From positions 1 through 64,000 of the forward strand of contig CAMCUN010000007.1 in assembly GCA_945878995.1 (NCBI GenBank): a stretch of DNA of 64,000 nt. Reading direction: 5' to 3'. Below are positions 119 to 17,379 of the stretch, in pieces. The stretch's first letter is position 1, and each line of letters starts with the position of its first letter. A model generated the notes under the pieces. It searched no databases and had not been told where the DNA came from. It saw nothing but the letters and a program-made list of their open reading frames with translations. The DNA comes from Polaromonas sp. YR568 (GTDB lineage: Bacteria; Pseudomonadota; Gammaproteobacteria; Burkholderiales; Burkholderiaceae_C). Both the position numbers and the translations under genes were made by a program.

Positions 119-1471
119 TCATGCCACAGCCTCCACAAACACCCGAGCCACGCGGCTCATGCTGCACCAGTAAAAGTCTCGGCTAAGCCCTGGACTGGGA
201 AACACCACCCCCTGGCTCCAGCCGCCCACACGCACCCTGCCCTTTTCTTGGCCAGTGAGGATGTCCAGCAGCACCACCTCTTCGCCCAAGCGGCGCCAAT
301 CGTTGAGCACCACCTCGCCACTGTCGGGATAGAGCAGCATGTGGCTGGCGCAGCCAAAACCGTCTTTGCGCCACAGGGGCGTGAGCGCAGTCAATCCATC
401 TTCGGTGGCAAATGCAAAGGCTTGCACGCAGTCGTTGGCCGAGTCGTACGCCAGCACCACCTGGCGCTGGGCGTCGACCAGCGGTGGGTTGGTGATGCTG
501 CCGTGCGGCAGGCCGCTCACCTCCAGGCTCTGGTGGTCGGCGGCGTCGCTCAGGCTGACGCGGTGCAGGCGGTTGGCGCCTGGGCTCACGCCCGCGCCGC
601 GCATTTGAAAGCGGTAACGGTGCTTGCCGTTGTCCATGAACCAGCCGTGGCCAGCCGCAAGCACCAGGTCCCAGCCAAAGCTGTGGCTGGGGACACTCAG
701 GTAAAAGTAACGCCAAGCAGGGTCCAGGTCCAGGCGGGACTGGGCGGCGTTCCAGTGAAAACGCATTACGCTGTGCGTGCCCACCACGTAGACCGTGTTG
801 CCAAGGGCGCTGAGCCGCGCCACCGAGGGTTCTGGGCACAGCGTGTCGGGGCCCACGGAAGCCAGGGTGTTGGGGGCCAGCACGCTGAGCCGGGCTGCTT
901 GCGTCTCAGACAGGTTTTTGGTGACCACCAAGCCATTGGCCAGCGTGACAAAGCCGTTGTAGGCCTGGGCCTCTGGCAGTTGGCGCACAGCCAAAGGCTG
1001 GCAGTCCAGGTCAAGCCGGTGCGCGTGGCGGCCGTAGACCACGATCAAGCTGCCATTGGGGTGCAGCGCCATCCCGCCCGGCCACATGGGGCCGCCGTCC
1101 AGGCGAGGCGAGCGCTGCAAGCTGTGCAGCCCGGTGGGGTGAATGCGCTCCACAAGCGCGGTGGTGGCCATGCCCAGGTGCGCCCGCAGCGCCGAATGCG
1201 TGAGCAAATACACCTGTCCCTGCGGGCCCAGCACCGTCATGGTGGACAGCAACGTGGCCCGGCTGCGACACACCAGCCGCTCGCCTGGCTGCAGCGCCAG
1301 CCCGCTGGCCTGGGCCACGGCTTGGGTGCGCTGGGCGCCGCCGTCTTCACTGGGCCAGGCGCTGGTGGCAGTCCCCGCCGCAAGCACCTTGTGTGCGGCA
1401 AGCGTCTGTCCAGCTTCGCCCCGTGTGGCCAGCGCGCCAGCGTCGCTTTTCAAGGCAGGTGCTGCAGTCAT
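119..1471 (-). CDS. predicted beta-propeller protein of the sulfatase A operon
   Basis: About 450 residues, not assigned to a named family. The sequence has recurring short beta-strand blocks of the kind found in NHL, SMP-30 or PQQ-type propellers, for example GGMALHPNGSLIVVYG, NGLVVTKN and LGNTVYVVGTHSVMRF. A glycine/tryptophan-rich end (DWRRLGEEVVLLDILTGQ) also fits a folded propeller. No signal peptide is obvious from the chosen start. The ATG at 1471 overlaps the sulfatase stop as ATGA; the reading frame stays open 28 codons further upstream, inside the sulfatase gene, and that extension is rejected. It is the last gene of a tightly coupled three-gene operon and is presumably translated with the sulfatase. 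A role in binding or processing the sulfatase substrate or product is inference only. Confidence 0.72.
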   Translation of the reverse strand: MTAAPALKSDAGALATRGEAGQTLAAHKVLAAGTATSAWPSEDGGAQRTQAVAQASGLALQPGERLVCRSRATLLSTMTVLGPQGQVYLLTHSALRAHLGMATTALVERIHPTGLHSLQRSPRLDGGPMWPGGMALHPNGSLIVVYGRHAHRLDLDCQPLAVRQLPEAQAYNGFVTLANGLVVTKNLSETQAARLSVLAPNTLASVGPDTLCPEPSVARLSALGNTVYVVGTHSVMRFHWNAAQSRLDLDPAWRYFYLSVPSHSFGWDLVLAAGHGWFMDNGKHRYRFQMRGAGVSPGANRLHRVSLSDAADHQSLEVSGLPHGSITNPPLVDAQRQVVLAYDSANDCVQAFAFATEDGLTALTPLWRKDGFGCASHMLLYPDSGEVVLNDWRRLGEEVVLLDILTGQEKGRVRVGGWSQGVVFPSPGLSRDFYWCSMSRVARVFVEAVA

Positions 1472-3333
1472 GGGGCGGCCCTGTTCAAGCGCCGCACGCG
1501 CCGCCTGCGCCACGCCCAGGCGCCCACCAGCACCAACAAACCCAGCACCCCCCAAAAAGCAGTGCGGTAGCGCGGCACGTACACGTTGAAAAACGCGTTG
1601 ATCTCCACCTGCCGAATCGGGTCGTACCCCTCGGGCATGGGCAGCACGCCGTGGCGTTGGGCGTAGTCGGCATAGGCCCGTTGCATGGCGGCAAAGACCT
1701 GGGGCATGTCAGCGGCCAGGTCTTTGGTCTCGCCCGGATCGCGCACGATGTCGTACAGGCGCCACTGCCCGTCGCCCACAGGCGCAATGTTGCGCAAAAG
1801 CTTGAGGTCACCCTGGAACAGCGCCTCGTTGCCCGAGAGTTCATAACCTATGGCGGCCTCGGGCGCGTGCACGCGGTCGGCGCGGCCGGTCAGCACGGGC
1901 AGCAAGCTGCGGCCAGTCATGGGTTCCACCGGCTGGCCTTGGTGGCTGCCGGTCTGTGGCGACAGGCCTGCCAACTCCAGCAAGGTGGGCGCCAGGTCGT
2001 TGACATGCGCAAAGCGCGGGTGAACCGCCCCGGGCTGCACGCCTGGCACGCCCGCCACGATGAGCGGCACGCGGATACCGCCCTCCCCCGAGTAAAACTT
2101 GTAGGTGGCCAGTGGCGAGGCCACGGCACTGGCCCAGCTCGGGCCAATCACGGCGTACCCGCCCTTAGCCCCCAAGCTGGCCAAGTCGCGTTTGTACTGC
2201 CAGTCCAGCCACAAACGGCCCGAGAGCTTGGCATACGGGTCTGAGGCTTCGGCCCCGTTGTCTGAAAGAAAAACAAACACCGTGTTGTCGTATTGCCCGC
2301 TTTGCTTGAGGTGAGCCACCAGGCGACCGACCTCGTGGTCCATGGCCTCGGCCATGCCGGCGTAGACCTCCATGCGGCGCTCTTCGTACAGTCGCTCCTC
2401 GGGGCTCAGGCTGGCCCAGTCGCGGGTGCTGGCCATCTCCACCATGGGCGTGCCTGCGGGCACCAGGCCCAGTGCGGCAGCGCGGTCGCGGCGCTCGTGG
2501 CGCAGGGCGCTCCAGCCGTCTTTGTAGCGACCCCTGTATTTGTCAATGAAAGCGGGCGGGGCCTGCACGGGGATGTGGTTGGCCTGAAAGGCCACGTAGG
2601 CCAAAAAAGGCTGGGGCTTGGCCTGGTCTTGGCGCAGGTAGCCCAGCATCTTGTCCATGAAGTAGGTGGACGAGTAATAGTCCGCAGGCATCTGGGCCTC
2701 GCGGCCGTCTTCGTACCAGTGCACCTTGTCGGTCAAATCAAGGTAGCGGCGCGCAGTTTCCCAATTGTCAGAGCCGCTGTCCCCTTGCACCAGCGAGCGG
2801 TCAAAGCCGCGCTGGGGCGGCAGGTTGTGCGGCTCCTTGCCCACATGCCACTTGCCCGTCACGTAGGTGCGGTAGCCGCTGGCCTGCAGCAAGCTGGAAA
2901 ACGTCACCACCCGCTCGCTGAGCACGGCCAGGTAGCCCGGGCGTCCCGCGTGCGCGCGCGGTATGGTTTCCCGCATATTGCCCACGCCGTTGAGGTGGTT
3001 GTCCACCCCGGTCAGCAGCATGGCCCGAGTGGGCGAGCACGAAGCGGCGACATGAAAGTTGGAAAAGCGCATGCCCCGTGCGGCCAGCGCGTCGAGGTGG
3101 GGCGTGGCGATTTCACCGCCAAAGGCGCCCACGTCAGAAAAGCCCCAGTCGTCGGCCAGCAGCAGGACGATGTTGGGGCGTTTGGTGGTGGCTGTGCTGA
3201 CTGGCTTGGCTTGGCCTGCGGCCTGCGTTGAACCAAGCGAAACGGCAGGCGTGGCCGCGAGCACTGTGTGGACCGGCAACGCCATGAGGGCAAGCCACAC
3301 CAGGCCCAAGCGGCACATGTTCAACACCGTCAT
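1468..3333 (-). CDS. AtsA-type arylsulfatase with C-terminal membrane anchor (sulfatase A)
   Basis: 621 residues of the alkaline-phosphatase/sulfatase superfamily, hydrolysing sulfate esters. Residues 5-27 look like a Sec signal peptide ending at LAA. The metal-binding segment LLLADDWGFSDVGAFGG lies at about 58-73. The formylglycine motif is C99-S-P-T-R103, the same form as recalled for Pseudomonas AtsA, followed by AMLLTGVDNH. Later motifs include TGKWHVGK, the metal site FLSDNGAEA, and a basic tail. The last 30 residues form a hydrophobic helix plus RRRR, so the enzyme is probably periplasmic and tethered by its C terminus. The ATG at 3333 overlaps the stop of the upstream gene (ATGA); a 38-codon upstream extension is rejected. 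No maturation enzyme is encoded in this operon; one is encoded at 20618-21709. Confidence 0.93.
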   Translation of the reverse strand: MTVLNMCRLGLVWLALMALPVHTVLAATPAVSLGSTQAAGQAKPVSTATTKRPNIVLLLADDWGFSDVGAFGGEIATPHLDALAARGMRFSNFHVAASCSPTRAMLLTGVDNHLNGVGNMRETIPRAHAGRPGYLAVLSERVVTFSSLLQASGYRTYVTGKWHVGKEPHNLPPQRGFDRSLVQGDSGSDNWETARRYLDLTDKVHWYEDGREAQMPADYYSSTYFMDKMLGYLRQDQAKPQPFLAYVAFQANHIPVQAPPAFIDKYRGRYKDGWSALRHERRDRAAALGLVPAGTPMVEMASTRDWASLSPEERLYEERRMEVYAGMAEAMDHEVGRLVAHLKQSGQYDNTVFVFLSDNGAEASDPYAKLSGRLWLDWQYKRDLASLGAKGGYAVIGPSWASAVASPLATYKFYSGEGGIRVPLIVAGVPGVQPGAVHPRFAHVNDLAPTLLELAGLSPQTGSHQGQPVEPMTGRSLLPVLTGRADRVHAPEAAIGYELSGNEALFQGDLKLLRNIAPVGDGQWRLYDIVRDPGETKDLAADMPQVFAAMQRAYADYAQRHGVLPMPEGYDPIRQVEINAFFNVYVPRYRTAFWGVLGLLVLVGAWAWRRRRVRRLNRAAP

Positions 3334-4715
3334 GGCTTTGCCCCTTGTGAAAATTGGGACTGAGCGCACACCGCCGCATGCACCATGCCCAGCCGGTCTT
3401 GGCCCCACACGGCCACATCGCCCACCCGGAACGAGGGCACGCCCCACAGACCCAAAGACAGCAGTTCTTGGCGGTTGGCCTCGGCCACACTGCGCCAGCC
3501 GCCAACGGCCGAGCCGTCTTCTTGCAGCACGGCTCTAGCCTGGGCCCAAGACAGTCCAGCCTGCTCGACGATGCGGCGCAGGCCCGCGTCTGAGCCCGCA
3601 TCCACGCCCTGGGCCCACACGCCTTGCATAAAAGCCAACACATAAGCCTCGCCCTTGCCCTCGCGCTCGGCCCAGGGCATCAGGCTCAAGCCGCGCTCTG
3701 TGGGCCGACCCACGGGATCATTGAGGCGGCCAAAGGCCACACCGCGTTCGTGCGCCTCACGCGCCGCATCGAGCGCAATGTAAAAGCGCTTGTCTTTGGG
3801 CACCGCCAGCCCCCGCATGACCATGGGCAGCACATAGCGCAGGTGTACACGGGCGCCCGTGCGCCGCGCCAGTTCGAACACCCGAGGCGCCACGATGGCC
3901 GAATACGGGCTGCGCAGCGAAAAGAAAAAATCAATGTTGGGCGCGCCTGCCAGCGGCTGCGCGGGGAAGTCATGGTCTTCGGGCGGGAACAAAAACGGTT
4001 GGGCAAATGCAGCAGGGCTGAGCCCGGCGTGCGTGCCCTTCTGCGGCTGCCCCCCTTCGCCGCGGCCGGCGCCCAAGGCTTGCAGTCGCTTTTCAAGGTG
4101 GTACAGCCGGTCCAACCCCCAGTACCACTCGCCGCCGTAATAAAAAGTGGCGCCCAGGTAGTGCCCCAGGCGCGCGCGAAGCCGCTGACCTTGGTCCAGC
4201 GCAAGATGGAGCCGCCGCAACTGGTCCGCCGGTGGCTCTGGCAGCGCGGGCGCAGCCGCCACCGCTGGCGCCCACAGGGCTGCACTCAAGCGGCTGGCCG
4301 TGCGAGTGAAGCTGCCATCGGCAATGGCATCGAGCAAAGCCAGTGAGGTGGCCGTCACCGCGGGCGCAGGCGGCTGGCACTGTGGGTCTGTAAAGCTCAG
4401 GCCATGCAAGAGCGCCAGGCGCTGGGCGTCAACTCGGCTGTAGGCCACCAGCCTGGCCCGGTCAGGCGCGGCGGCCTCGGCGGGCGGGCCCACCAAGTGC
4501 GGTTCAATGCGCAGCTCGTAGCGCTGCGCCAAGGCCTCAAGGGCCTGGGCTGCCAAATGGCTGTAAGGATCGTCCACCTGGTGGAAGTACAGCAGCACAT
4601 GCGGCAAGCCCTTGGCCACGCGGCGCGACTCGGCACGCTCGCGCTGACGCAGCAAGCGCTCGCGCGACAACAGGTGCGCAGAGACAAAAGGGGTAATGAG
4701 GGTGCGCAGCGACAT
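3330..4715 (-). CDS. tandem DsbA / 2-hydroxychromene-2-carboxylate isomerase-like protein
   Basis: 461 residues with two thioredoxin-fold DsbA-like domains in one chain. The first (about 38-200) begins VLLYFHQVDDPYSHLA. The second (about 255-450) begins IDFFFSLRSPYSA and ends with LGLWGVPSFRVGD plus WGQDRL, typical of the HCCA isomerase (kappa GST-like) family. The CxxC of true DsbA is replaced by DPYS and SPYS, so a thiol-disulfide role is unlikely; glutathione-dependent isomerisation is the usual family activity. The protein lacks a signal peptide, so it is likely cytoplasmic. It is the first gene of the sulfatase A operon and a palindromic operator lies 5 bp upstream of its ATG. The leader would be very short, with no evident ribosome binding site. 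The substrate is unknown. Confidence 0.85.
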   Translation of the reverse strand: MSLRTLITPFVSAHLLSRERLLRQRERAESRRVAKGLPHVLLYFHQVDDPYSHLAAQALEALAQRYELRIEPHLVGPPAEAAAPDRARLVAYSRVDAQRLALLHGLSFTDPQCQPPAPAVTATSLALLDAIADGSFTRTASRLSAALWAPAVAAAPALPEPPADQLRRLHLALDQGQRLRARLGHYLGATFYYGGEWYWGLDRLYHLEKRLQALGAGRGEGGQPQKGTHAGLSPAAFAQPFLFPPEDHDFPAQPLAGAPNIDFFFSLRSPYSAIVAPRVFELARRTGARVHLRYVLPMVMRGLAVPKDKRFYIALDAAREAHERGVAFGRLNDPVGRPTERGLSLMPWAEREGKGEAYVLAFMQGVWAQGVDAGSDAGLRRIVEQAGLSWAQARAVLQEDGSAVGGWRSVAEANRQELLSLGLWGVPSFRVGDVAVWGQDRLGMVHAAVCAQSQFSQGAKP

Positions 4716-6074: not shown

Positions 6075-7037
6075 TTGAGCACACCAAATTCCTCGTCTCC
6101 GCAGGCCCAGCCTCCAGCTTGGCTGAGCGCGGCGCTCGACGGTCAGCGGGCCGGCTTGGCCCGAGCCATCACAGCCGTGGAAGAACACACCCTTGATGCG
6201 GCTGCCGTGCTGGCAGCCGTCTACCCCCGGGTGGGTCGGGCGGTGGTGGTCGGCTTTACCGGCGCCCCGGGGGCGGGCAAATCCACCTTGATTGCCGCCT
6301 GCATCACCGAGGCGCGACAGCGCGGTTTGCAGGTGGGCGTGGTGGCGGTTGACCCCTCTAGTCCCTTGACCGGTGGGGCGGTGCTGGGCGACCGCATCCG
6401 CATGCTGGCCATGGCTGGCGACAGTGGTGTGTTTGTGCGCAGCCTGGCTGCCCGAGGTCATTTAGGGGGCTTGTCGGCGGCGGCGTCTAGGGTGGTTGAT
6501 GTGCTTGATGCGGCCGGCAAGGACCTGATCATTGTCGAGACGGTGGGGGTCGGGCAGTCCGAGACCGAGGTCAGCGGTCTGGCCCAACTGACGGTGCTGG
6601 TGTGCGCTCCGGGCATGGGCGACGAGGTGCAGATGATCAAGGCCGGTGTGCTCGAAATGGCCGATGTGTATGCCGTCAACAAGTCCGACCTGCCGGGCGC
6701 GCAGGGACTGGCTCGGGCGCTGCAGGCAGCCGCCCATCTCGGCAATGGCCCCATACCGCCGGTGATCGCCACCACCGCCAGCACCGGTGCGGGCGCCGCC
6801 GACCTGCTCGATGCGGTCTATGCGGCCCACGCTGCCCGGGTGACGGCGCCCGCGCAGGAGCGCATGCGCCGCTTGCAAAAAACGCTGGCCGCGATGGCCG
6901 GTCAAGTCTTGCAGCAGCGCATCGCGGCGCTGGACAACGCCAGCCTGCAAGCCATAGGCCAGGCTTTGCTGCAAGGGCAGCAGGATTTCCCAGGGGCGGT
7001 GCAGCAGTTGCTCGCCCGAGCGCTTGAGCCGGGCTGA
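6075..7037 (+). CDS. meaB: MeaB/ArgK-type GTPase, chaperone of a B12-dependent mutase
   Basis: 320 residues, G3E-family P-loop GTPase of the MeaB/ArgK group, which protects and reloads adenosylcobalamin-dependent acyl-CoA mutases. Visible motifs are Walker A GAPGAGKST (residues 63-71), VAVDPSSPLTGGAVLGDRIRM, the ETVGVGQSE switch and NKSD for guanine recognition. The start is TTG at 6075; no in-frame ATG lies near the conserved N terminus. It is separated from the mutase genes by a TetR gene on the opposite strand, so it has its own promoter within 5925-6074. The cognate mutase is almost certainly the one at 9841-11977. Confidence 0.93.
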   Translation: MSTPNSSSPQAQPPAWLSAALDGQRAGLARAITAVEEHTLDAAAVLAAVYPRVGRAVVVGFTGAPGAGKSTLIAACITEARQRGLQVGVVAVDPSSPLTGGAVLGDRIRMLAMAGDSGVFVRSLAARGHLGGLSAAASRVVDVLDAAGKDLIIVETVGVGQSETEVSGLAQLTVLVCAPGMGDEVQMIKAGVLEMADVYAVNKSDLPGAQGLARALQAAAHLGNGPIPPVIATTASTGAGAADLLDAVYAAHAARVTAPAQERMRRLQKTLAAMAGQVLQQRIAALDNASLQAIGQALLQGQQDFPGAVQQLLARALEPG

Positions 7038-7049
7038 CTGGTCCTCAGG

Positions 7050-7718
7050 CTAATTGAGGCCGCTGCGCACCAGGCGCATATAGGTCTTGATGACCTCCTC
7101 CGGCAGGCGGGCACCGGCGCCCTGACCCTTGACGTAGCGCATGTACAGGTAGCTGCGCGCCGCCATCAGCACATACACCAGGGTTTCGATCTCGCTGAGC
7201 TTGAAGTTGCGGACCTGGCCGGCCTGCATCGCCGACTCAATGGCATGCACAAAGTGGCTCACCGTGCGCCTAAAGTGTTCCTCGTGCGCCTTGGGCGCGG
7301 CCACCTCCGCCTCATTGAGGATGCGAAAGAAGCCCGGGTTAGGACCCAGGAATTCAAAGAAAGCTCTAAAACCGCGCTCTTCCATCTCCAAGATGTCCTG
7401 GGCGCCGGCCACCCGACTGCCTACAAAGTGCAGCATGTCCTTGCCCACATGCGGCAGGAGTTCGTCAAACAGGCTCTGCCGCGAAGAAAAGTACAAATAA
7501 AAAGTACCCTGCGCCATGCCCGCCTCTTCGGTGATGCGGGTGATCGAGGCTGAGGCATAGCCGTGTTCGCCCACCACCTTGGCAGCTGCAGCGAAGATTT
7601 GATCGCGCGCATCGGGCGCGCGCTCCTCGCGGGTCTGCCGCTTGCGGCTGCGGCCGGCAGCAGTGAGCTTGTCGGCGCCTGTGGCTTCGTTTTTGCTGGT
7701 CAGCATGTTCCAGCTCAT
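7050..7718 (-). CDS. TetR/AcrR-family repressor of the mutase cluster
   Basis: About 222 residues. The N-terminal helix-turn-helix is clear: ARDQIFAAAAKVVGEHGYASASITRITEEAG, followed by GTFYLYFSSRQSLFDELL. The C-terminal two-thirds is the helical ligand-binding domain. The ATG at 7718 is chosen because the longer frame begins with TTG at 7739, only 12 bp from the divergent gene. ATG 7706 is another option. It is convergent with meaB and divergent from the crotonase/acyl-CoA dehydrogenase/mutase operon, the classic position for a local repressor that responds to an acyl-CoA or related acid. The inducer is unknown. Confidence 0.88.
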   Translation of the reverse strand: MSWNMLTSKNEATGADKLTAAGRSRKRQTREERAPDARDQIFAAAAKVVGEHGYASASITRITEEAGMAQGTFYLYFSSRQSLFDELLPHVGKDMLHFVGSRVAGAQDILEMEERGFRAFFEFLGPNPGFFRILNEAEVAAPKAHEEHFRRTVSHFVHAIESAMQAGQVRNFKLSEIETLVYVLMAARSYLYMRYVKGQGAGARLPEEVIKTYMRLVRSGLN

Positions 7719-7752
7719 TGTATTTAAAAGAAATTCCAAGGGTTCATCCCAA

Positions 7753-7766
7753 TGAATGACGATTCA
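7753..7766. promoter_or_regulatory. palindrome in the TetR / mutase-operon divergent promoter
   Basis: TGAAT-GACG-ATTCA, perfect 5-bp arms with a 4-nt centre, in the roughly 100-bp region between the TetR start (7718) and the preferred crotonase start (7818). Spacing and position fit a TetR-type operator. The arms are short, so chance occurrence is possible. Confidence 0.4.
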
Positions 7767-7817
7767 GTGAGTGTTGATTCTTTGTCCCATGTTTGCCATC
7801 ATTGGGTCAATAGATTG

Positions 7818-8627
7818 ATGGGAGCAGAGCCAGTGCATTTCGATACCTACACCACCCTGAGCTTTGTGCGTCGGGGTCGCATTCTTGAGATCACCATGAA
7901 CCGGCCGGCCACGCTCAATGCGGTTGACGAGGTGATGCACGAGGAACTGGCCCGGGTTTTTACCGACGCGTCCAATGACGCAGACTCCGACATCGTGGTG
8001 CTCGCCGGCGCCGGCCGCGCCTTTTCTTCGGGCGGCGACGTGGTGTTTTTCCAGAAGATGATTGACGAGCCGGCCTCCTTTGAGAAAACCGCGCGCGAGG
8101 CCAAACAAATCATTTTTTCGCTGCTTGACTGCGAAAAGCCGGTGATTGCCAAGCTCAACGGCCATGCTACCGGTCTGGGTGCCACCATCGCCCTGTTTTG
8201 CGACATCGTGTTTGCTGCCGACAGCGCCAAGATCGGCGACCCCCATGTCTCGGTCGGCCTGGTCGCCGGTGACGGCGGTGCGGTCATCTGGCCTCAGCTC
8301 ATAGGCTATGCCCGCGCCAAGGAATACCTGATGACCGGCAACCTGATGACAGCCACCCAAGCCGCTGGCATGGGCCTGATCAACCATGTGGTTCCGCTGG
8401 CAGAGCTCGACGACCGGGTGGGCCAGTTTGCCGACGGCCTGGCAGCCGGTGCGATCAAGGCCATCAAGTGGACCAAGCTTTCCATCAACATCGGTCTCAA
8501 GCAACTGGCCAGCAGCATCATGGACGCCTCAATCGCCTATGAAGCCATGTCCAACGTGACGGTCGACCATCAGGAGGCGGTCAACGCCTTCCGGGAAAAG
8601 CGCAAGCCGGTGTTTGTTGGGCGCTGA
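7818..8627 (+). CDS. crotonase-superfamily protein (enoyl-CoA hydratase-like) lacking both catalytic Glu
   Basis: About 269 residues with the crotonase fold: ITMNRPATLNAVD, GRAFSSGGDV, ATGLGATIALFCD, GDPHVSVGLVAGDGG and the C-terminal FREKRKPVF. At the positions of rat enoyl-CoA hydratase Glu144 and Glu164 I align Thr (in GATIALFCD) and His (in GDPHV), so ordinary hydratase chemistry is doubtful. The GDPH-GLVAGDGG form marks a distinct subgroup. The frame opens at an ATG at 7752, but its first 22 residues look unlike protein and would leave no room for a divergent promoter, so 7818 is preferred. It is the first gene of a nine-gene operon. Confidence 0.85.
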   Translation: MGAEPVHFDTYTTLSFVRRGRILEITMNRPATLNAVDEVMHEELARVFTDASNDADSDIVVLAGAGRAFSSGGDVVFFQKMIDEPASFEKTAREAKQIIFSLLDCEKPVIAKLNGHATGLGATIALFCDIVFAADSAKIGDPHVSVGLVAGDGGAVIWPQLIGYARAKEYLMTGNLMTATQAAGMGLINHVVPLAELDDRVGQFADGLAAGAIKAIKWTKLSINIGLKQLASSIMDASIAYEAMSNVTVDHQEAVNAFREKRKPVFVGR

Positions 8628-8668: not shown

Positions 8669-9844
8669 ATGAATTTCACCGAACCGGACAACATACGCCA
8701 ACTGCGCGACGTCCTGGAGCGTTTTGTGGACAAGGAAATGCCCCGCCCACTGGCGCAGCGTTGGGACCGGGACAACTATTTCCCGCGCGATGTCTTTGAC
8801 AAGCTGGCCCAACTTGGCGTGATGGGGCTGACGGTGCCCGAGGAATACGGCGGCGCTGGCCGCGACATTCTGGCCACCATGGTGGTGATTGAAGAGCTCT
8901 CCCGTCGCAGCTCGGCCGTCGGCATCCCCTACATCATGGGCGCCTGCTACGCCGGCATGAACATCGTCGACTGCGCCACCGAAGAGCAAAAGCGCCAGTT
9001 CCTGCCCAAGGTGGTTGATGGCTCGCTGATCTTCTCCTATGGCTGGACCGAGCCCGACACCGGCGCCGACCTGGCCAGCGTGAAAACACGGGCGGAACGG
9101 GTGGCAGGTGGCATGGTGCGCATCAACGGCGCCAAGCGCTTTTGCACCGGCTCGGCCATCTCCGACTACATCTACGCCCTGGTGCGCACCGGCCCTGAAC
9201 AAGAGCGCTACAACAACCTGTCGATGGTGATGATCCCGCCCGACACCCCTGGCGTCACCATCACCCCCATCCACACCCTGGGCACCCACGGCGCGGCCAC
9301 CACCGACGTGAGCTTTGACAACGTCGAGGTGCCTTTTGACAATGTCATGGGCGGCGAAGAGGGTTGGAACCGCGGCTGGAAGATGATCGTCGGCTCCGGC
9401 CTCGATGTTGAAAAACTCGAGGTGGCCGCCATTGCGGTGGGCATTGCCCGCGCGGCACTTGACGATGCCTGGGACTACGCCCGCCAGCGCCGCCAGTTTG
9501 GCAAGACCATCGAAAACTACCAGTCCATCCAGCACAAGCTGGCCGACATGAAAACCCAGTTGCACGGCGCACGCCTAATGCTTTACCACGCCGCCTGGAT
9601 GGCCAACGAGCGCATCCCCTGCGGCGTCGAAACCTCCATGGCCAAGCTGTTTGCCACCGAAGCCTCTAAGACCATTGCGCTTGAATGCCAGACCATTCAC
9701 GGCGCCTATGGCTATGTGAAGGACTTCGACGCTGAGCGCTATGTGCGCGATGCCTTGCTGCTGCCCATCATTGGCGGCTCCTCGGCAGTGCAGCGCAACA
9801 ACATCTACAAATGGTCCAGCTCCAAGACAAGGGCGGGCGCATGA
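8669..9844 (+). CDS. acyl-CoA dehydrogenase with isovaleryl-type catalytic base
   Basis: 391 residues, FAD acyl-CoA dehydrogenase, full length. Motifs: YGWTEPDTGADLAS (flavin/substrate loop), GAKRFCTGSAISDYI, RRQFGKTIENYQSIQHKLADM and HGAYGYVKDFDAERYVRDA. The usual YEGT catalytic Glu near the C terminus is replaced by Gly369-Gly370 (PIIGGSSAVQR). A Glu instead lies at residue 248 in SGLDVEKLE, which aligns with isovaleryl-CoA dehydrogenase Glu254 (SGLDLERL). This placement suggests a branched or bulky acyl-CoA substrate. ATG 8669 is 41 bp after the crotonase; the stop overlaps the mutase start (ATGA). Confidence 0.93.
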   Translation: MNFTEPDNIRQLRDVLERFVDKEMPRPLAQRWDRDNYFPRDVFDKLAQLGVMGLTVPEEYGGAGRDILATMVVIEELSRRSSAVGIPYIMGACYAGMNIVDCATEEQKRQFLPKVVDGSLIFSYGWTEPDTGADLASVKTRAERVAGGMVRINGAKRFCTGSAISDYIYALVRTGPEQERYNNLSMVMIPPDTPGVTITPIHTLGTHGAATTDVSFDNVEVPFDNVMGGEEGWNRGWKMIVGSGLDVEKLEVAAIAVGIARAALDDAWDYARQRRQFGKTIENYQSIQHKLADMKTQLHGARLMLYHAAWMANERIPCGVETSMAKLFATEASKTIALECQTIHGAYGYVKDFDAERYVRDALLLPIIGGSSAVQRNNIYKWSSSKTRAGA

Positions 9845-11547
9845 GCGATTCAGCGACATCTACCGATGCTTCAGGCAGCGCCAACCTGGCCGAGGCGATG
9901 AAGCGCTGGCATGAGCAAACGCTCTCGCCGGTGCTCAAGAAATCACCAGAACGCAAGGCCGAGTTCATCTCTGAAGCCAACATCCCCATCAAGCGCCTGT
10001 ACACACCGGCCGATCTGGCGGGCCGCGACTATGAGCGCGACCTTGGTTTTCCAGGCCAGGCGCCTTTTACCCGGGGCGTCTACCCGACCATGTACCGCGG
10101 CCGACTCTGGACCATTCGACCCTACTCGGGCTTTGGCACGCCGCAGGAGACCAACCAGCGCTTCAAATACCTGCTCGGACTCAATGAGAAGGCCTTGACC
10201 ATCGCTTTTGATCTGCCTAGCCAGATTGGTTACGACTCCGATGCGCCGCAGGCCAAGGGCTCGGTCGGCAAGGTGGGCGTGGCCATCGACTCCATCGATG
10301 ACATGCACACCCTGTTTGACGGCATCCCGGTGCAGGATGTGAGCGTGGCCATGACCATCAACTCGACGGCCCCCATCATCCTGGCCTTTTACCTGGCGAT
10401 GGCGCAGGAGCGCGGCATCGATATGCGGGTGCTGCAGGGCACGACGCAAAACGACATCCTCAAAGAGTATGTTGCGCGCGGCACCTACATTTTTCCGGTG
10501 CGTCCCTCGCTGCGCCTGACCACCGACCTGATCGAGCACTGCTTTCACCATGTGCCCAAGTGGAATACCCTGTCCATCACCGGTGTGCACATGCGCGAGG
10601 CCGGCGCGACTGCGGTGCAAGAGGTGGCTTTTGCCCTGGCCCATGCCATCGTCTACATTGAATCGGCGCTGGAGCGGGGCCTGGATGTCGATGAATTCGC
10701 GCCACGTCTGTCGTATTCGCTGGGCTGCTACCGCGACCTGTTTGAAGAAGTGGCCAAGTTTCGGGCGGCCCGGCGCCTGTTTACCCGAGTCATGCAAGAG
10801 CGCTTCCAGCCCAAGGACCCGCGCTCTTCGATGTTCCGCATCTATTGCGGCACGCTGGGCTCCACCCTGACCCGCCAGGAGCCTGAGAACAACATTGTGC
10901 GCATCGCCATGCACGCCCTGATTGGAGCGCTGGGTGGGGCCCAGGCCATTTTCACGGCGGGCCTGGATGAGGCCTTCGCGCTGCCGACCGAGCGCGCCGC
11001 CAAGATCGCGCTGCGCACCCAGCAGATGATGGTCGATGAATTTGGCATCACCAACACCATAGACCCGCTGGGCGGATCGTATTACGTCGAGTCGCTCACC
11101 AATGAGATTGAAGAGCGCGCCGCAGCCATCCTCCAGCAGATCGACGAGATGGGCGGCATGATTGCCGCGCACGAGAGCGGCTGGGTCCAGCAAGCCATTG
11201 AAGAGTCCAGCTACGCCTTTCAGCAGAAGGTCGAAAGAGCAGAGCATGTGTTTGTCGCGATGAACAAATACCTGCCAGAAGAAGGTCGTGAGGCCGACCC
11301 GATCGAGACCTTCCGTGTCGACGACAGCCTGGAAAAGGCCCAGTGCGAGCGCCTGGCCCAGCTGCGCCAGCGGCGTGACGCGGACCGCGCTGCCGCCCTG
11401 CTCGAGCGCATTGAGCAGGCTGCGCGCGGCAGCGACAACCTGATGCCCTTGTTCATCGAGGCCGCCAAGGCCCGCGTCACCCTGGGCGAGATCTGCGGCG
11501 TGCTGCGCCGCTGCTGGGGCGTGCACAACCCAATGCAGAGTTACTGA
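9841..11547 (+). CDS. cobalamin-dependent acyl-CoA mutase, large (catalytic) subunit, divergent
   Basis: 568 residues, the TIM-barrel subunit of the methylmalonyl-CoA mutase family without the B12 domain. Compared from memory with Propionibacterium shermanii MCM, the alignment is nearly gapless. Tyr95, Gln203, Arg213 and His250 match Tyr89, Gln197, Arg207 and His244, so a carboxylated acyl-CoA substrate is likely. However, Tyr243 becomes Val249, His328 Tyr335, Gln330 Gly337, His364 Phe371 and Asn366 Ala373; Glu370 is kept as Glu377. Several of these line the adenosyl pocket. It is split from its B12 subunit, as in isobutyryl- and 2-hydroxyisobutyryl-CoA mutases, but has Tyr/Arg rather than their replacements. 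The start overlaps the previous stop; the B12 subunit begins 1 nt after its stop. Confidence 0.92.
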
Positions 11548-11548
11548 T

Positions 11549-11977
11549 ATGCAAGCCAAAGACCCAAAGGGCAAGATACGCATTATCGCCGGCAAGCCCG
11601 GGCTAGACGGGCATGACCGCGGCATCAAGGTGGTGACCCGCGCGCTGCGTGACGCCGGCATGGAGGTGATCTACCTGGGCATGCGCCTGTCGGTCGACCA
11701 GATCGCCAGCGCCGCCGTCGATGAAGACGCCGATGTGGTCGCCATTAATTTTGCGGCCGCCGACCACCTGCAACTCGGTCCCGACCTGATGCAGGCTCTG
11801 CGCTCGCGCGGCTGCCGCGACGACCTGATGGTGGTGGCCGGGGGCATCATCCCCGACGAGGACATCCCGGCGCTCAAGGCGGCAGGCATGAGCGAAATCT
11901 TTTTGCCTGGCACGCCCATTGAAAAAATCATCACTTACATCGAGAAGAACGCGCCGCGCCGATCCGTCGGCATTTGA
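11549..11977 (+). CDS. cobalamin-binding small subunit of the acyl-CoA mutase
   Basis: 142 residues, B12-binding Rossmann-like domain. The cobalt-ligating motif D20-G-H22-D-R-G25 (DxHxxG) and the later GG (98-99, VVAGGIIPDED) are present. The SxL that normally follows the third strand is replaced by N67-F-A69 (AINFAAADH), so contact with the cobalamin nucleotide tail may differ from known mutases. It follows the large subunit by 1 nt and must form the holoenzyme with it. MeaB at 6075 is the expected partner. The length is typical of free-standing small subunits. Confidence 0.93.
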   Translation: MQAKDPKGKIRIIAGKPGLDGHDRGIKVVTRALRDAGMEVIYLGMRLSVDQIASAAVDEDADVVAINFAAADHLQLGPDLMQALRSRGCRDDLMVVAGGIIPDEDIPALKAAGMSEIFLPGTPIEKIITYIEKNAPRRSVGI

Positions 11978-12018
11978 GACCTTTGAGACCTTGTGCCCAA
12001 AACCACCTGGAGACTGCC

Positions 12019-12993
12019 ATGAAACCCATCGCTTTTCCCCGCCTGCTTGGCGCCCTGAGCCTTGTTCTGTCTTGCGCTTGTGCGTTTGGACAGACAAGCT
12101 TTCCCGACAAACCCATTCGCATCGTCGTGCCCTTTGCGCCCGGCGGCGGCACCGACGTGCTGACCCGCATCGTGGCCCAGCAGATGGCCGAAGACATGAA
12201 AGCGCAGATCATCATTGAAAACCGACCCGGTGCCGGCGGCGGCCTGGGCGCAGCGCTGGTGGCCAAGGCCGCACCTGACGGCTACACCTTGTATGTAGGC
12301 ACCACAGCCACCTCCATGATGCCCTCGCTCAGCAAAAACCTGAGTTTTGATCCCATTGGTGACTTTGTGCCCATCGCGCTGATCGGCAGTTCCCCCTTTA
12401 TTTTGATCACCCACAACAAGTTGCCGGTCAACAACCTGGATGATTTGCTGGCCCTGGCCAAGGCCAAGCCGGGCAGCTTGTCCTACGGATCGGCCGGCAA
12501 TGGCTCGATCAACCATGTGGGCATGGAACTGTTCAAGTCCATGGCCCAGGTTGATATTCTGCATGTGCCTTACAAAGGAAGCTCGGCCGCTCTGGCCGAT
12601 GTGCTGGGCGGCCAGCTCAGCATGATGATGGACACGGTGGTGTCTTCGTCGCAGCATGTCAAGAGCGGGTCGGTCAAGGCACTGGCTGTGACCAGCCTGG
12701 AAAAAGCCAGCCTCACGCCGACCATACCTACGATTTCTGAGCAAGGCGTCAAGGGCTTTGATGTCACCGCCTGGTATGGTTTTGTCGCCCCCAAGGGCAC
12801 GCCTCAGGCGGTGCTGCAGCGACTGAACACCGAGGTCAACAAAGCCCTGGCCAATCCAGCTGTGCGGGCTCGCTATGAAAAGCTGGGCGCCGAGCCGGTG
12901 CCCAGCACGCTAGAGGGCTTTGGCAAGATGTGGATCGCCGAAGAAAAAAAATGGACCAACGTGGTTCGCAGCGCCAACATCCGTTCGGAATAA
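12019..12993 (+). CDS. Bug/TctC-family periplasmic binding protein 1
   Basis: 324 residues, tripartite tricarboxylate transporter substrate-binding family. A Sec signal peptide ends around CAFGQ; the mature part opens with FPDKPIRIVVPFAPGGGTD, and the family carries NRPGAGGGLGA, DGYTLYVGT, SYGSAGNGS and HVPYKGS. The ATG at 12019 replaces an upstream in-frame start that would precede the signal peptide. It is embedded in the mutase operon, 41 nt after the B12 subunit, so its ligand is probably the acid consumed by this pathway or a pathway inducer. No TctA/TctB membrane subunits are encoded in the window. Confidence 0.9.
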   Translation: MKPIAFPRLLGALSLVLSCACAFGQTSFPDKPIRIVVPFAPGGGTDVLTRIVAQQMAEDMKAQIIIENRPGAGGGLGAALVAKAAPDGYTLYVGTTATSMMPSLSKNLSFDPIGDFVPIALIGSSPFILITHNKLPVNNLDDLLALAKAKPGSLSYGSAGNGSINHVGMELFKSMAQVDILHVPYKGSSAALADVLGGQLSMMMDTVVSSSQHVKSGSVKALAVTSLEKASLTPTIPTISEQGVKGFDVTAWYGFVAPKGTPQAVLQRLNTEVNKALANPAVRARYEKLGAEPVPSTLEGFGKMWIAEEKKWTNVVRSANIRSE

Positions 12994-13003
12994 GGAGCCC
13001 ATC

Positions 13004-13978
13004 ATGAACCAGAGTACCCGTCGCAGTTTCATCACCCTGACTGTGGCTGCAGCCGCTGGCAGCAGTTGGGCCCAGACTGGGTTTCCGAACAAGCCCATGC
13101 GCATCATCGTGGCCTTTCCGCCCGGCGGCAGCACCACCGTGGTGGCCCGCCTGCTGGGTCAAAAGCTCAGCGAGCGCCTGGGCCAAGGGGTGGTCGTTGA
13201 CAACAGACCCGGTGGCAATGGTGTGATTGCCTCCGAGGAGTTGCTCAGGTCTGCGCCCGATGGGCACCACATGGTGATGGTGGTCAACACCCACACCATC
13301 AACCCGCACATGATGGCCCGCCTGCCCTACAACACCGAGCGTGACTTCTCGCCGGTCAGCACGCTTTACAGGTTTGACCTGATCCTTGTGGCGCACCCGG
13401 CCGTGCCGGCGAACAATCTGCGTGAGTTCATCGCCCTGGCCAAGTCCAATCCCTCGGCCATCAATTTCGCCGCTGGCGACAACGCGGGCCTGACCCATCT
13501 GGCGGCTGAAACCTTCAACACAATGGCCGGCGTCAAGCTGCAGGTGGTGCCCTACAAGGGCAGCGGCCCGGCCCTCAGCGACACGCTGGCGGGGCATGTG
13601 CAAGCGTATTTCAGCTCGCCGATCGCGGTCATCTCCCAGATCAAGGCGGGCAAGCTCAAGGGCGTGGCCATTTCAGGCCGCACACGCTCGGTGGCGCTGC
13701 CTGAGGTGCCCACCTTTGCAGAGGCCGGCCTGCCCGGCTATGAGGCAGGCACCTGGGCCGGCATCCTGGCCCACGGCTCAACGCCCAAAGAGTTGGTGAA
13801 CAAACTGGCCGCCGAGATCGCTGCCGTCATGGCCTTGCCCGATGTGCGCGAGAACCTGCAGAGCCAGGGCCTGGAGCCCACCACCACCTCACCGGCTGAG
13901 TTTGCTGCCATCATCAAGTCGGACATGACCCGCTTCGAAAAGGTGATCCAAGCTGCCAACCTCAAGACCGAGAAATAG
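13004..13978 (+). CDS. Bug/TctC-family periplasmic binding protein 2
   Basis: 324 residues, same family as the preceding gene but clearly a different sequence. The N terminus has a twin-arginine-like motif (TRRSFIT) before AAAAGSSWAQ, so Tat export is possible. Mature landmarks: FPNKPMRIIVAFPPGGST, NRPGGNGVIAS, INFAAGDNAG, VVPYKGSG. ATG 13004 is preceded by AAGGAG right at the stop of the first Bug gene. Two unrelated Bug proteins inside one operon suggest two related ligands or a sensing role for one of them. Confidence 0.9.
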   Translation: MNQSTRRSFITLTVAAAAGSSWAQTGFPNKPMRIIVAFPPGGSTTVVARLLGQKLSERLGQGVVVDNRPGGNGVIASEELLRSAPDGHHMVMVVNTHTINPHMMARLPYNTERDFSPVSTLYRFDLILVAHPAVPANNLREFIALAKSNPSAINFAAGDNAGLTHLAAETFNTMAGVKLQVVPYKGSGPALSDTLAGHVQAYFSSPIAVISQIKAGKLKGVAISGRTRSVALPEVPTFAEAGLPGYEAGTWAGILAHGSTPKELVNKLAAEIAAVMALPDVRENLQSQGLEPTTTSPAEFAAIIKSDMTRFEKVIQAANLKTEK

Positions 13979-13985
13979 GCCTTCC

Positions 13986-15215
13986 ATGGCAGAAGCAGCC
14001 TTGGGGTCGAAAGACCTGGCGCCTCCCTTGCAGAACCTGGTGGTGATAGACCTGACGCGCGCGCTGGCCGGTCCCCACTGCACCATGATGTTGGCCGATC
14101 TGGGCGCGCGGGTGCTCAAGATTGAGCCGGTGGAAGACGGTGAAGGTGACTCCACCCGCGGCCTGGCGCCGCATCTGGGGGCGGGCGTGTCGTCCTACTT
14201 TGCCGGCGTCAACCGCAACAAGGAGGGGCTGACGCTCAACCTCAAACATCCGCAGGGTGTGGCGCTGCTGCGTCAGCTGTGCGCGCAGGCGGACGTGATC
14301 ATCGACAACTTCAGGCCCGACACCATGGCCCGCTTCGGCGTGGACTATGAGGAGCTGCGCCAGGCGGTCAATCCGCGCTTGGTGTCCTGCTCCATTTCAG
14401 GCTTTGGCAACACCGGCGAGTACCGGCTGCGTTCGAGCTTTGACCTGATCGTGCAGGCCATGGGCGGAGCGATGAGCGTGACCGGCGTGCCCGGCGGCCC
14501 GCCCGTGCGGCTGGGCTTGCCCATGGGCGACATCGCCGCCGGCATGTATGCCTCCACGGGCATCTTGGCCGCGCTGCAGGCACGGCAGCTCACCGGCCGC
14601 GGCCGGCATGTGGAAGTCAGCATGCTCGACTGCATGGCCGCCCTGCTCAGCTACATGGGCGCCAACTACCTCAACACTGGCCAGGTGCCCGGCCCGCAGG
14701 GCTCAGGCCATGTGGTCAATGTGCCCTACCAGGCCTTTGAGACAAAAACCCAGTGGATGGTGATCGCCATCTTTGGCGAGCGCTACTGGAAGGAAACCTG
14801 CGAGGTGCTGGGCATGGCCCATCTCGCCGCCGACCCGCGGTACGCCAGCGCCGATCAGCGATCGCAGCACCGCGAAGAGTTGCTGACCATCATCAAGGCC
14901 ATTCTCAAGACCCGGCCGGCTGCCCAGTGGCTCGAGCAATTGCTCGCTCAACGCGTGCCCTGCGCGCCCATCAATACCGTCGACCAGACCCTCAATGACC
15001 CGGTGGTGCTCGGGCGCCACATGGTGGTGCAGACTGACCACCCCGCCTACGGCCGGGCGCGCGCACCGGGAAACCCGATGAAGGTCGAGGGCATACGCGA
15101 CGGCCAGGCCAGCGCCGCACCGGTGCAGGGCGAACACACGGTGGCGGTGCTGCGCGAATTGCTCGGCGCCAGCGATCAGCAGATTGACGAACTTAAGAAA
15201 GCAGGCGTGATATGA
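13986..15215 (+). CDS. family III (CaiB/BaiF) CoA-transferase of the mutase cluster
   Basis: 409 residues. Family III transferases move CoA between carboxylic acids through an aspartyl-CoA thioester. The nucleophile is Asp182 in GLPMGDIAAGMYAS, matching formyl-CoA transferase Asp169. Other landmarks are VIDLTRALAGPHCTMMLADLGARVLKIE at the N terminus and GRGRHVEVSMLD after the active site. It lies 7 nt after the second Bug gene and overlaps the MmgE/PrpD gene by ATGA. In context it probably activates the imported di- or tricarboxylic acid to its CoA ester. The donor, possibly succinyl-CoA, is inferred. Confidence 0.93.
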   Translation: MAEAALGSKDLAPPLQNLVVIDLTRALAGPHCTMMLADLGARVLKIEPVEDGEGDSTRGLAPHLGAGVSSYFAGVNRNKEGLTLNLKHPQGVALLRQLCAQADVIIDNFRPDTMARFGVDYEELRQAVNPRLVSCSISGFGNTGEYRLRSSFDLIVQAMGGAMSVTGVPGGPPVRLGLPMGDIAAGMYASTGILAALQARQLTGRGRHVEVSMLDCMAALLSYMGANYLNTGQVPGPQGSGHVVNVPYQAFETKTQWMVIAIFGERYWKETCEVLGMAHLAADPRYASADQRSQHREELLTIIKAILKTRPAAQWLEQLLAQRVPCAPINTVDQTLNDPVVLGRHMVVQTDHPAYGRARAPGNPMKVEGIRDGQASAAPVQGEHTVAVLRELLGASDQQIDELKKAGVI

Positions 15216-16588
15216 CCGTCAGCCAAGCCTTGGCCCAGTTTGTGGGCAATGCCAAATTCGATATGCTCAGTGCCGCCGACCTGGCCGGCGCCAAGGCCGC
15301 GATTTCAGACTGCATAGGCTGCACGGTGGCGGGTGCGGCCACGCCCACCGGGGCCATCGTGCGCAAGGTGGCAGACGCATCCAGCGGAGAAGGTTCGGCG
15401 ACGGTGATTGGCTCAGGCCGCAGCCTGAGTCCGCAGGCCGCTGCTCTGGCCAATGGCACCGCCGGCCACGCCCTCGACTACGACGACATCCTCTGGACCC
15501 AATACGGTCACCCCTCGGTGGCGGTGCTGCCGGCAGCCCTGGCGCTGGCCGAGGCCACAGGTGCATCGGGCCGCGAACTCATCATGGCTTATGCCATCGG
15601 CGTCGAGATCATCGGCAAGTTCGGCCGTGCGGCCAACCCCCAGCACTATGAGCACGGTTGGCACTCGACCGCCACCATGGGCGTGATCGGCGCGGCGGCC
15701 GCCAGCGCCAAGCTCATGCGCCTGGACCCTCAGCAAACCGCCATGGCTTTGGGCCTGGCCGCCTCGCAGGCCAGCGGCGTGCGGCGCAACTTTGGCACCA
15801 TGACCAAACCCTTTCATGCGGGCAATGCTGCCCGCGCCGGCATTTTGTCGGCCGAGTTGGCGCGGGAAGGCTTTACCTCCGACCTGCGGGCCTTTGAGGG
15901 CGAGGTGGGCTGGGCCCAGGTGCTGCAAGCGCGCAGCACGCCTACTCCTGAGGAGTGGGCCGCCAGCCTGGGCCAGCCCTGGGAGCTGAGCGCGCCGGGC
16001 ATCGTGCTCAAGCGCTACCCGGCCTGCGGCTGCACCCATTGCGCGCTCGATGCCCTGCTGGCCATTTGCAAGGAGCATCAGATAAAGGCCGAAGAGATAG
16101 ACAAGATCGACTGCGATGCCAGTCCGCTGGCCAAGAAGGTCTTGCTCTACCCCCGACCCGTCACCGGGCTGGAGGGCAAGTTCAGCATGGAGTTCAGCCT
16201 GGCAGTGGCAGCGGTCGAGGGCCAGGCCGGGCCTAGCCAGTATGAGGACCACTGGACGCAAGATGCCCGGGTGCAGGCCTTGCTGCCCAAGATCAGCTTT
16301 CGCTCGCGGGCCGACCTCGAGCCCGATGTATCGGCCGACGCGGTGCCGGCCGAGGTCACGGTACACGCACGTGGGCAGAGCTACACCCGCAAGGTGCTGG
16401 TGCCCTCGGGCGATCCGCGCAACCCAATGACGCAGGCCGAGCGCCGCGAAAAATTCATGGCCTGTACCCTGGCTCTGGTGCCCACTGAGGCTGCCAGCGG
16501 CCTGTTCAATGCGCTTGAAGACCTGGAACATTGCACAGACCTGCGCAGCTTGCTCGCGCCGCTGCGGGGCGCAAGGGCCAGCACCTGA
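15212..16588 (+). CDS. MmgE/PrpD-family dehydratase/decarboxylase-like protein
   Basis: 458 residues, the family of 2-methylcitrate dehydratase and cis-aconitate decarboxylase. All the polar active-site positions I can align with cis-aconitate decarboxylase are present: Asp in ALDYDD (89-92), His100 in YGHPSV, His151 in GWHSTAT, Lys199 in MTKPFHAG and Lys267 in LKRYPACGCTH. An active enzyme on a di- or tricarboxylic acid is therefore likely. The start overlaps the CoA-transferase stop, so the two are translationally coupled. Within the cluster it may dehydrate, isomerise or decarboxylate the carboxylic acid substrate before or after CoA transfer. The exact reaction is unknown. Confidence 0.9.
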   Translation: MTVSQALAQFVGNAKFDMLSAADLAGAKAAISDCIGCTVAGAATPTGAIVRKVADASSGEGSATVIGSGRSLSPQAAALANGTAGHALDYDDILWTQYGHPSVAVLPAALALAEATGASGRELIMAYAIGVEIIGKFGRAANPQHYEHGWHSTATMGVIGAAAASAKLMRLDPQQTAMALGLAASQASGVRRNFGTMTKPFHAGNAARAGILSAELAREGFTSDLRAFEGEVGWAQVLQARSTPTPEEWAASLGQPWELSAPGIVLKRYPACGCTHCALDALLAICKEHQIKAEEIDKIDCDASPLAKKVLLYPRPVTGLEGKFSMEFSLAVAAVEGQAGPSQYEDHWTQDARVQALLPKISFRSRADLEPDVSADAVPAEVTVHARGQSYTRKVLVPSGDPRNPMTQAERREKFMACTLALVPTEAASGLFNALEDLEHCTDLRSLLAPLRGARAST

Positions 16589-16590
16589 AC

Positions 16591-17379
16591 ATGGGCAGCC
16601 CGGACGACACCCTGCAACTGGCCATAGACGGCCCGGTGGCCACGATCGTCTTCAACAGACCACAGGCGCGCAATGCCCTGACCGGCGCCATGCTGCAGGG
16701 GCTGGAGGCCGCCTTGGGCAAGTGTTCTGCGCACGAAGACTTGCGGGTGGTGGTTTTGCGCGGTGCTGGCGAGCTTGCCTTTTCTGCGGGTTACAACCTC
16801 GACGAATTACCAGCGCACCCGCTCAGCGCTGCTGACGCGCGCGCCATTCACGCGCCCGTGCGCCAGGCGGCCCAGGCCATCGCCCACTGCCGCCACCCTG
16901 TGCTTGCTGCCGCCCGCCGGTTTGTGATTGGCGCTGGGCTCGACCTGTTTTGCCATGCGGACATGCGCATCTGCGACCAGGCCTGCAACTTTTTCATGCC
17001 GCCCAACAAGTACGGCTTTGTCTACCCAATGGAAGGCCTGGCTGCGCTGGCCCAAGCCGCAGGCATGGCGCGAGCGGCTGACATGTTGCTCAGCAGCCAG
17101 CCCCTGAGCAGCGAGCAGGCCATGGCCTGCGGGCTGGTGCACAGAGTGTTCAAGTCCGAGGACTTTGAAGCCGACATCGCCTCGCTGGCACAGACACTGG
17201 CCGCCAACGCCCCCCTGAGCATGCGCACGAGCAAGCTGGCCCTGCGGGCCATGCAGACTCTGCCTGCCAGTGACCCGGCCTACTACCAACACATGGCCGA
17301 CTGCCTCAACAGCCTAGACAGCCGTGAGGCCATGGTCGCCTTCCGAGAAAAGCGCAAGCCGGTATTTACTGGGCGTTGA
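16591..17379 (+). CDS. second crotonase-superfamily protein of the mutase cluster, atypical active site
   Basis: 262 residues. Crotonase landmarks are IVFNRPQARNALT, AFSAGYNLDEL, RRFVIGAGLDLFCHADMRI and the C-terminal FREKRKPVFTGR, nearly the same tail as the first crotonase of this operon. The two catalytic Glu positions carry Asp118 (GAGLDLF) and Pro138/Asn139 (MPPNKYG), so it is not a standard hydratase; isomerase, hydrolase or C-C bond activity is possible. ATG 16591 follows the MmgE/PrpD stop by 2 nt; an upstream in-frame start lies inside that gene and is rejected. It is the last gene of the operon. Confidence 0.87.
   Translation: MGSPDDTLQLAIDGPVATIVFNRPQARNALTGAMLQGLEAALGKCSAHEDLRVVVLRGAGELAFSAGYNLDELPAHPLSAADARAIHAPVRQAAQAIAHCRHPVLAAARRFVIGAGLDLFCHADMRICDQACNFFMPPNKYGFVYPMEGLAALAQAAGMARAADMLLSSQPLSSEQAMACGLVHRVFKSEDFEADIASLAQTLAANAPLSMRTSKLALRAMQTLPASDPAYYQHMADCLNSLDSREAMVAFREKRKPVFTGR

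Follow-up and report, generated by a model that had tools for sequence, protein, structure and literature searches.

Two adjacent genes in a 64,000-nucleotide stretch of Polaromonas sp. YR568 (contig CAMCUN010000007.1, positions 1 to 64,000; hereafter, the window) are predicted to encode a two-subunit acyl-CoA mutase that depends on adenosylcobalamin (AdoCbl) and that, judged by its sequence, belongs to a new clade within a familiar kind of enzyme. We assign a probability of roughly 0.6 to the reading that this is a functional enzyme interconverting a substituted succinyl-CoA and a substituted malonyl-CoA within a catabolic gene cluster. The substituent is presumably larger than the hydrogen of the methylmalonyl-CoA mutase (MCM) substrate, and what we propose about the chemistry beyond a mutase of carboxylated substrates is deduced by comparison with known enzymes.

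The mutase locus is carried by contig C7, one of the 154 contigs that make up this 4.1 Mb genome. The large, substrate-binding subunit is encoded on the plus strand at 9841..11547 (PF01642, 664.9 bits; TIGR00641, 676 bits) and the small, B12-binding subunit on the same strand at 11549..11977 (TIGR00640). An MM_CoA_mutase domain and a B12-binding domain with a DxHxxG motif are both present, as is characteristic of the AdoCbl-dependent acyl-CoA mutase superfamily. The large-subunit open reading frame spans 9811-11547, with an alternative start at 9811 and, in the same frame, an ATG at 9841 whose letters run into the stop codon of the upstream acyl-CoA dehydrogenase gene (ATGA); the residue numbers given in an earlier note on this DNA (V249, Y335, G337, F371, A373, and E377) agree with the start at 9841. 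The best match in the PDB is 4r3u, the 2-hydroxyisobutyryl-CoA mutase HcmA/HcmB (HCM), both by sequence (E 1e-153) and by fold, and the Foldseek search confirmed the fold and nothing beyond it. Against the NCBIfam equivalog NF006944, the large subunit scores 579 bits with a cut-off of 876, although this model spans the fused single-chain enzyme and a split subunit scores low regardless.

Residues are numbered here as in P. shermanii MCM, the literature number being the chain index plus one. When the large subunit was aligned to P. shermanii MCM, human MCM, and HCM, the five residues that the earlier note had listed as conserved (Tyr89, Gln197, Arg207, His244, and Glu370) were indeed retained, and the five changes that it had named (Y243V, H328Y, Q330G, H364F, and N366A) were all present, together with a further one, F287S. 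These are real substitutions in a nearly gapless alignment, as had been claimed. Local alignments yielded 43.3% identity to P. shermanii MCM with 4 gap runs (11 gap letters), 43.6% to HCM with 3 gap runs (4 gap letters), and 43.5% to human MCM with 7 gap runs (14 gap letters), and identical changes occur in all five rows of the clade. Among 83 rows (five of the clade and 78 others, repeats of one locus having been removed beforehand), V243 and Y328 were found in 5/5 clade rows and in 0/78 others, while S287, G330, F364, and A366, each likewise present in every clade row, were found in 1, 10, 2, and 3 of the 78 others, respectively. All six positions are invariant in 31/31 MCM rows. Tyr89 and Arg207, which we take to be the pair binding the free carboxylate in MCM, are kept in 5/5 clade rows; we likewise assume that Gln197 and His244 are thioester contacts and that Glu370 is a cofactor contact. 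Several of the changed residues are presumably adenosyl contacts.

The small subunit retains DxHxxG (as GLDGHDRG), and its SxL motif reads NFA, as previously noted. Across 72 rows, 68 of them distinct, the serine of SxL is replaced by asparagine in 5/5 clade rows (NFA or NFS) and is kept in 63/63 other distinct rows, whereas the leucine itself is M or Q in 11 of those 63. The SxL motif is usual in B12-binding domains, but it is not certain to be obligatory. The B12-side change proposed earlier, the exchange of serine for asparagine, is real and unique to the clade among the rows compared.

When 84,980 species, each represented by a single genome, were scanned with six exact peptide patterns, a procedure that misses diverged members, six distinct loci with relatives were obtained. 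Four relatives (L003-L006) share 95, 87, 83, and 78% identity with the large subunit, and every large-subunit change is present in each of them. Whole-genome searches of 299 family, 399 order, and 369 class genomes (drawn samples that share some genomes, with at most four candidates scored in most genomes) found no clade member beyond the window's own. The nearest non-members in these searches, L010 (53%) and L096 (55%), carry Y243, S287, F328, G330, H364, and A366 and hence exhibit a half-way state. These two mutases (L047 9074-11056, minus strand, and L105 9382-11070, plus strand) are 71% identical to each other and share a neighbourhood consisting of a small subunit, an amidohydrolase 2, a carboxyl-transferase-type carboxylase subunit, a nitroreductase, and an SDR, and they appear to represent another mutase system.

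Two maximum-likelihood trees were built, one with 51 rows and one with 47 rows from which the long branches L095, L090, L089, and L071 were omitted; the 83 rows had been reduced to 51 by thinning, by eye, 32 redundant-looking MCM, HCM, and IaaG-type rows, and L096-L104 are in neither tree. In both trees, the five clade rows are monophyletic with support of 100/100, L010 is their sister (99/98 and 100/99), and the clade stands apart from the MCM, HCM, ethylmalonyl-CoA mutase (ECM)-like, and IaaG-type clades (each 100/100). In neither tree does the enzyme fall within a characterised clade that shares its residues. Rows L008 and L094, from which the clade is likewise separate, are labelled ECM-like by a motif, and none of the NCBIfam models names them. 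A search of titles and abstracts, with most subscription journals outside its coverage, found no work on this mutase subfamily. The earlier proposal of an undescribed subfamily acting on a carboxylated acyl-CoA is supported in its first part by the separate clade, and the retained Tyr89/Arg207 pair is consistent with its second part.

The altered positions are best judged against the IaaG-type mutases. This group (L017-L022, L065, L067-L069, and L073, 11 rows in all, with L104 from another order) keeps Y89 and R207 and carries N287, I328, G or A330, A364, and C366. From gene neighbourhoods, not from accessions, we infer that its members are the phenylsuccinyl-/benzylmalonyl-CoA mutase IaaG. 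Five of the seven IaaG-type neighbourhoods examined contained an acyl-CoA dehydrogenase in which GGG replaces YEG, the exceptions being L051 (only 4.6 kb) and L088 (16 kb, no match), and in L052, the one neighbourhood scanned for both, hydantoinase A and an AMP ligase lie in the same stretch. GGG for YEG is the signature that PMC8360864 reports for IaaF in indoleacetate degradation, a pathway that includes the mutase IaaGH, a CoA transferase, and an acyl-CoA dehydrogenase. Positions 287, 328, 330, 364, and 366 are thus altered in mutases whose carboxylated substrates bear a large substituent, and the window enzyme departs at each of them with residues of its own, and at 243 in addition. Because the IaaG-type enzymes are also changed at 287, 328, 330, 364, and 366, a reshaping of the substrate pocket is likelier than a loss of AdoCbl. 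The substitutions themselves stand, but the alteration of adenosyl contacts is the weaker part of the earlier reading, and the changes are likelier to reflect a reshaped or enlarged substrate pocket. The window enzyme resembles IaaGH further in Gly330, found in 9 of the 11 IaaG-type rows, and in having both a CoA transferase and a dehydrogenase of the acyl-CoA type among its neighbours. It differs from the IaaG-type rows in that these have N287, I328, A364, and C366, keep Tyr243 and the SxL serine, and form a separate clade at 41-43% identity. Moreover, a profile scan of 16 proteins encoded between 1.5 and 19.2 kb of the window found no neighbours of the indoleacetate type (hydantoinase, AMP ligase, or GGG dehydrogenase).

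HCM shares the separate large and small subunits and is the best PDB match, but its marker residues Ile89/Gln207 are absent from the window enzyme, which has Tyr and Arg, and HCM keeps His328, Gln330, His364, Asn366, and the small-subunit serine and belongs to another clade. MCM (P. shermanii and human) has in common with the window enzyme the Tyr/Arg carboxylate pair, Gln197, His244, and Glu370 at 43% identity; in contrast, the two diverge at the six pocket positions and in the SxL motif of the small subunit, and this genome encodes a canonical MCM elsewhere. ECM acts on a substituted succinyl/malonyl pair, and the motif-labelled rows L008 and L094 likewise retain Tyr89/Arg207 and depart from MCM at 328, 364, and 366, yet they have G328, Q330, Q364, and P366, share only 36-37% identity, and form a separate clade. 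ActD and MatB-MatQ, proposed in PMC5719088 as hexylmalonyl-CoA mutases of actinonin and matlystatin, are also of the split-subunit type with a proposed long-alkyl malonyl/succinyl-CoA pair, although they are biosynthetic and actinobacterial.

The genes around the mutase suggest catabolism of an imported substituted succinate. In 4/4 relatives, the mutase genes occur together with genes for a MeaB-type GTPase chaperone (6075..7037, plus strand; TIGR00750, 277.5 bits with a cut-off of 240.75), a family III CoA transferase (13986..15215, plus strand; PF02515), and an MmgE/PrpD-family protein (15212..16588, plus strand; PF03972/PF19305). The closest solved relative of the CoA transferase is succinate-hydroxymethylglutarate CoA-transferase (9br6, E 3e-82), a succinyl-CoA:dicarboxylate enzyme, and that of the MmgE/PrpD protein is iminodisuccinate epimerase (2hp3, E 1.3e-72), followed by IRG1. 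Two TctC-type receptors of the tripartite tricarboxylate transporter are encoded on the plus strand at 11974..12993 (PF03401, 241 bits) and 12920..13978 (PF03401, 225 bits), the second frame overlapping the first so that its true start is probably later. Two or three TctC genes follow the small subunit in 3/4 relatives, and in the fourth, L006 (12038-14951), their slot holds a TRAP transporter (DctM, DctP), which is another carboxylate importer. This content fits dicarboxylate uptake, succinyl-CoA-driven CoA transfer, an epimerising or isomerising step, and a mutase. The only other mutase match in the genome is a single-chain MCM of 742 aa with canonical residues on contig C126, and the only other MeaB match adjoins it; the MeaB at 6075..7037 is thus probably dedicated to the clade mutase. 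The cluster genes are presumably co-transcribed.

The remaining genes of the cluster comprise a TetR-type regulator between the MeaB and crotonase genes (7050..7739, minus strand; homologue in L003, L005, and L006) and, on the plus strand, a crotonase-family protein (7752..8627, true start possibly later; homologue of at least 60% in 3/4 loci), the acyl-CoA dehydrogenase (8669..9844; homologue of at least 67% in 2/4 loci), and a second crotonase-family protein (16588..17379; homologue of at least 51% in 3/4 loci). On the minus strand, a sulfatase and a DsbA-like gene lie beside the cluster at 1468-4715 and also adjoin it in L003.

We propose that a dicarboxylate would be imported with the assistance of a TctC receptor, or by a TRAP transporter in one relative, and that the family III transferase would move CoA onto it from succinyl-CoA, with the MmgE/PrpD protein possibly supplying an epimerising or isomerising step. 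The mutase, served by its own MeaB, could then perform the usual radical 1,2-shift between a substituted succinyl-CoA and a substituted malonyl-CoA. Tyr89 and Arg207 would grip the free carboxylate, Gln197 and His244 the thioester, and Glu370 would contact the cofactor. Smaller side chains at 243, 287, 330, and 366 may open the pocket, and the exchange of histidine for tyrosine at 328 and for phenylalanine at 364 may render it more hydrophobic. MeaB would load and protect the cofactor, as reported for MCM in PMC10481361. Flux from the succinyl to the malonyl form is likely, because the malonyl form could then be decarboxylated and oxidised; decarboxylation and beta-oxidation by the crotonase and dehydrogenase proteins might follow.

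The dehydrogenase at 8669-9844 reads IGG where others read YEG, a feature that the L003 and L006 homologues share, and this absence of the YEG glutamate, as in IaaF, gave rise to the idea of an IaaF-like oxidative decarboxylase. However, it possesses a glutamate at what we take to be the position used by isovaleryl-CoA dehydrogenase, a column that reads Ile in 5/5 IaaF-like rows. The 21 further dehydrogenase matches in the genome (L109-L129) served as a control; two of them are a single ORF, and of the 20 distinct ones two stop short of the YEG column, leaving 18. An acid in the YEG column was found in six of these, none of which has the isovaleryl-type glutamate (0/6), while the 12 that lack the acid all have it (12/12). 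On these grounds the dehydrogenase is probably not IaaF-like, a conventional enzyme being the simpler reading. This mutual exclusivity, as seen in the present genome, also helps to distinguish IaaF-like dehydrogenases, which have neither residue.

Several observations weigh against the proposed substituted succinyl-/malonyl-CoA mutase pathway. The window dehydrogenase is probably of a conventional branched-chain type, so that no IaaF-like decarboxylating enzyme is provided by it. Neither the dehydrogenase gene (2/4) nor the crotonase genes (each 3/4) occur in all relatives, and the other dehydrogenases near the mutase in L004 and L005 are only 30 and 28% identical to that of the window. TctC, CaiB, and MmgE are broad families with many members in Burkholderiales. 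An AlphaFold2 model built from a 7-row alignment reached a mean pLDDT of 67.6, with 300/568 residues at 70 or above, and was poor at 27-97, 339-350, and 371-407, which contain most of the pocket. Union tests do not reject a grouping of the clade with MCM (p 0.38), the IaaG type (p 0.218), or the IaaG type plus L028/L070 (p 0.153), so that more than one deep branching order is compatible with the data; the tests likewise allow either shared ancestry or convergence for the Gly330 that the clade has in common with most IaaG-type rows. As for the decarboxylation step, the crotonase at 16588-17379 is a possible candidate, methylmalonyl-CoA decarboxylase being only its third-best NCBIfam model (147 bits with a cut-off of 257). 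Both crotonases seem, by eye and against classical enoyl-CoA hydratase, to lack the two hydratase glutamates.

It is possible to read the enzyme as a duplicate MCM that performs the normal reaction for a second dicarboxylate-linked cluster and tolerates its changes, given that Tyr89, Gln197, Arg207, His244, and Glu370 are kept and that the tests do not reject joining it to the MCM clade. We consider this unlikely, as six pocket positions invariant among MCM rows are changed, the genome already contains a canonical MCM accompanied by MeaB, and neither propionyl-CoA carboxylase nor epimerase was found among the 16 proteins scanned. We also think it quite unlikely that the substrate is a small unsaturated or hydroxylated C5 dicarboxyl-CoA of the itaconyl, mesaconyl, or citramalyl type, with the MmgE/PrpD protein making itaconate in the manner of cis-aconitate decarboxylase. 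That protein does match IRG1/cis-aconitate decarboxylase (E 1e-56 to 2e-38), and succinyl-CoA:mesaconate CoA-transferase is the second-best NCBIfam model of the CoA transferase, below its cut-off; however, iminodisuccinate epimerase is clearly the better match (E 1e-72), the family-wide motifs are not diagnostic, and a C5 acid would presumably need no pocket opened at several positions.

Decay of the paralogue to a state in which the rearrangement is no longer catalysed would be in keeping with changes at presumed adenosyl contacts and at the conserved SxL serine, but it seems improbable. The dN/dS values of the large subunit in five pairs were 0.034, 0.085, 0.129, 0.088, and 0.148 (simple count method, with dS near 1 in four of the five pairs), from which the gene is under purifying selection, and such low values argue against decay. 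The same changes also occur in 5/5 clade rows, the neighbourhood with MeaB is conserved, and IaaG-type enzymes show this kind of change too. A hydroxyacyl-CoA mutase like HCM or an engineered lactyl-CoA mutase is highly improbable. HCM is the best solved relative by sequence and fold with the same split-subunit architecture, yet Ile89/Gln207 is absent, 18/18 rows that do have this pair keep His328, Gln330, His364, and Asn366, and the two enzymes fall in separate clades. Finally, it is rather unlikely, though conceivable, that a mutase for bulky branched dicarboxylates in an undescribed pathway also recognises the cobamide tail differently, through asparagine in place of serine, and may use a lower ligand other than dimethylbenzimidazole; the lower-ligand selectivity of MCM is treated in PMC6759758.

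Other altered mutases were observed alongside the clade. One pair, L028/L050 and L070/L084, keeps Tyr89/Arg207 and carries L117, A243, G328, V330, F364, and C or A366, and crotonase and TctC genes also lie nearby in L050. A mutase on a Sphingobium plasmid (L090 5962-7683), accompanied by a small subunit and MeaB, is without the carboxylate pair and the catalytic histidine (V89, V197, V207, A243, Q244). Two further odd mutases, both in genome G584, carry N243, R285, M328, Y330, R364, and A366 (L089) and V287, L328, T330, G364, and R366 (L071).

Acyl-CoA mutases that depend on B12 are, to our knowledge, few in number, and the discovery of several of them led to a pathway, as with ethylmalonyl-CoA, 2-hydroxyisobutyrate, and indoleacetate. 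Because the carboxylate clamp is kept while six pocket residues and one B12-side residue are changed, the present clade can be used to separate the contacts required to control the radical from those that serve only to accommodate the substrate, and the set of candidate substrates is small. If the proposed role of the cluster is true, it would point to a hitherto undescribed pathway by which Comamonadaceae-like bacteria, as the relatives are named in their records, handle branched dicarboxylates, and would offer a starting point for mutases with a wider substrate range.

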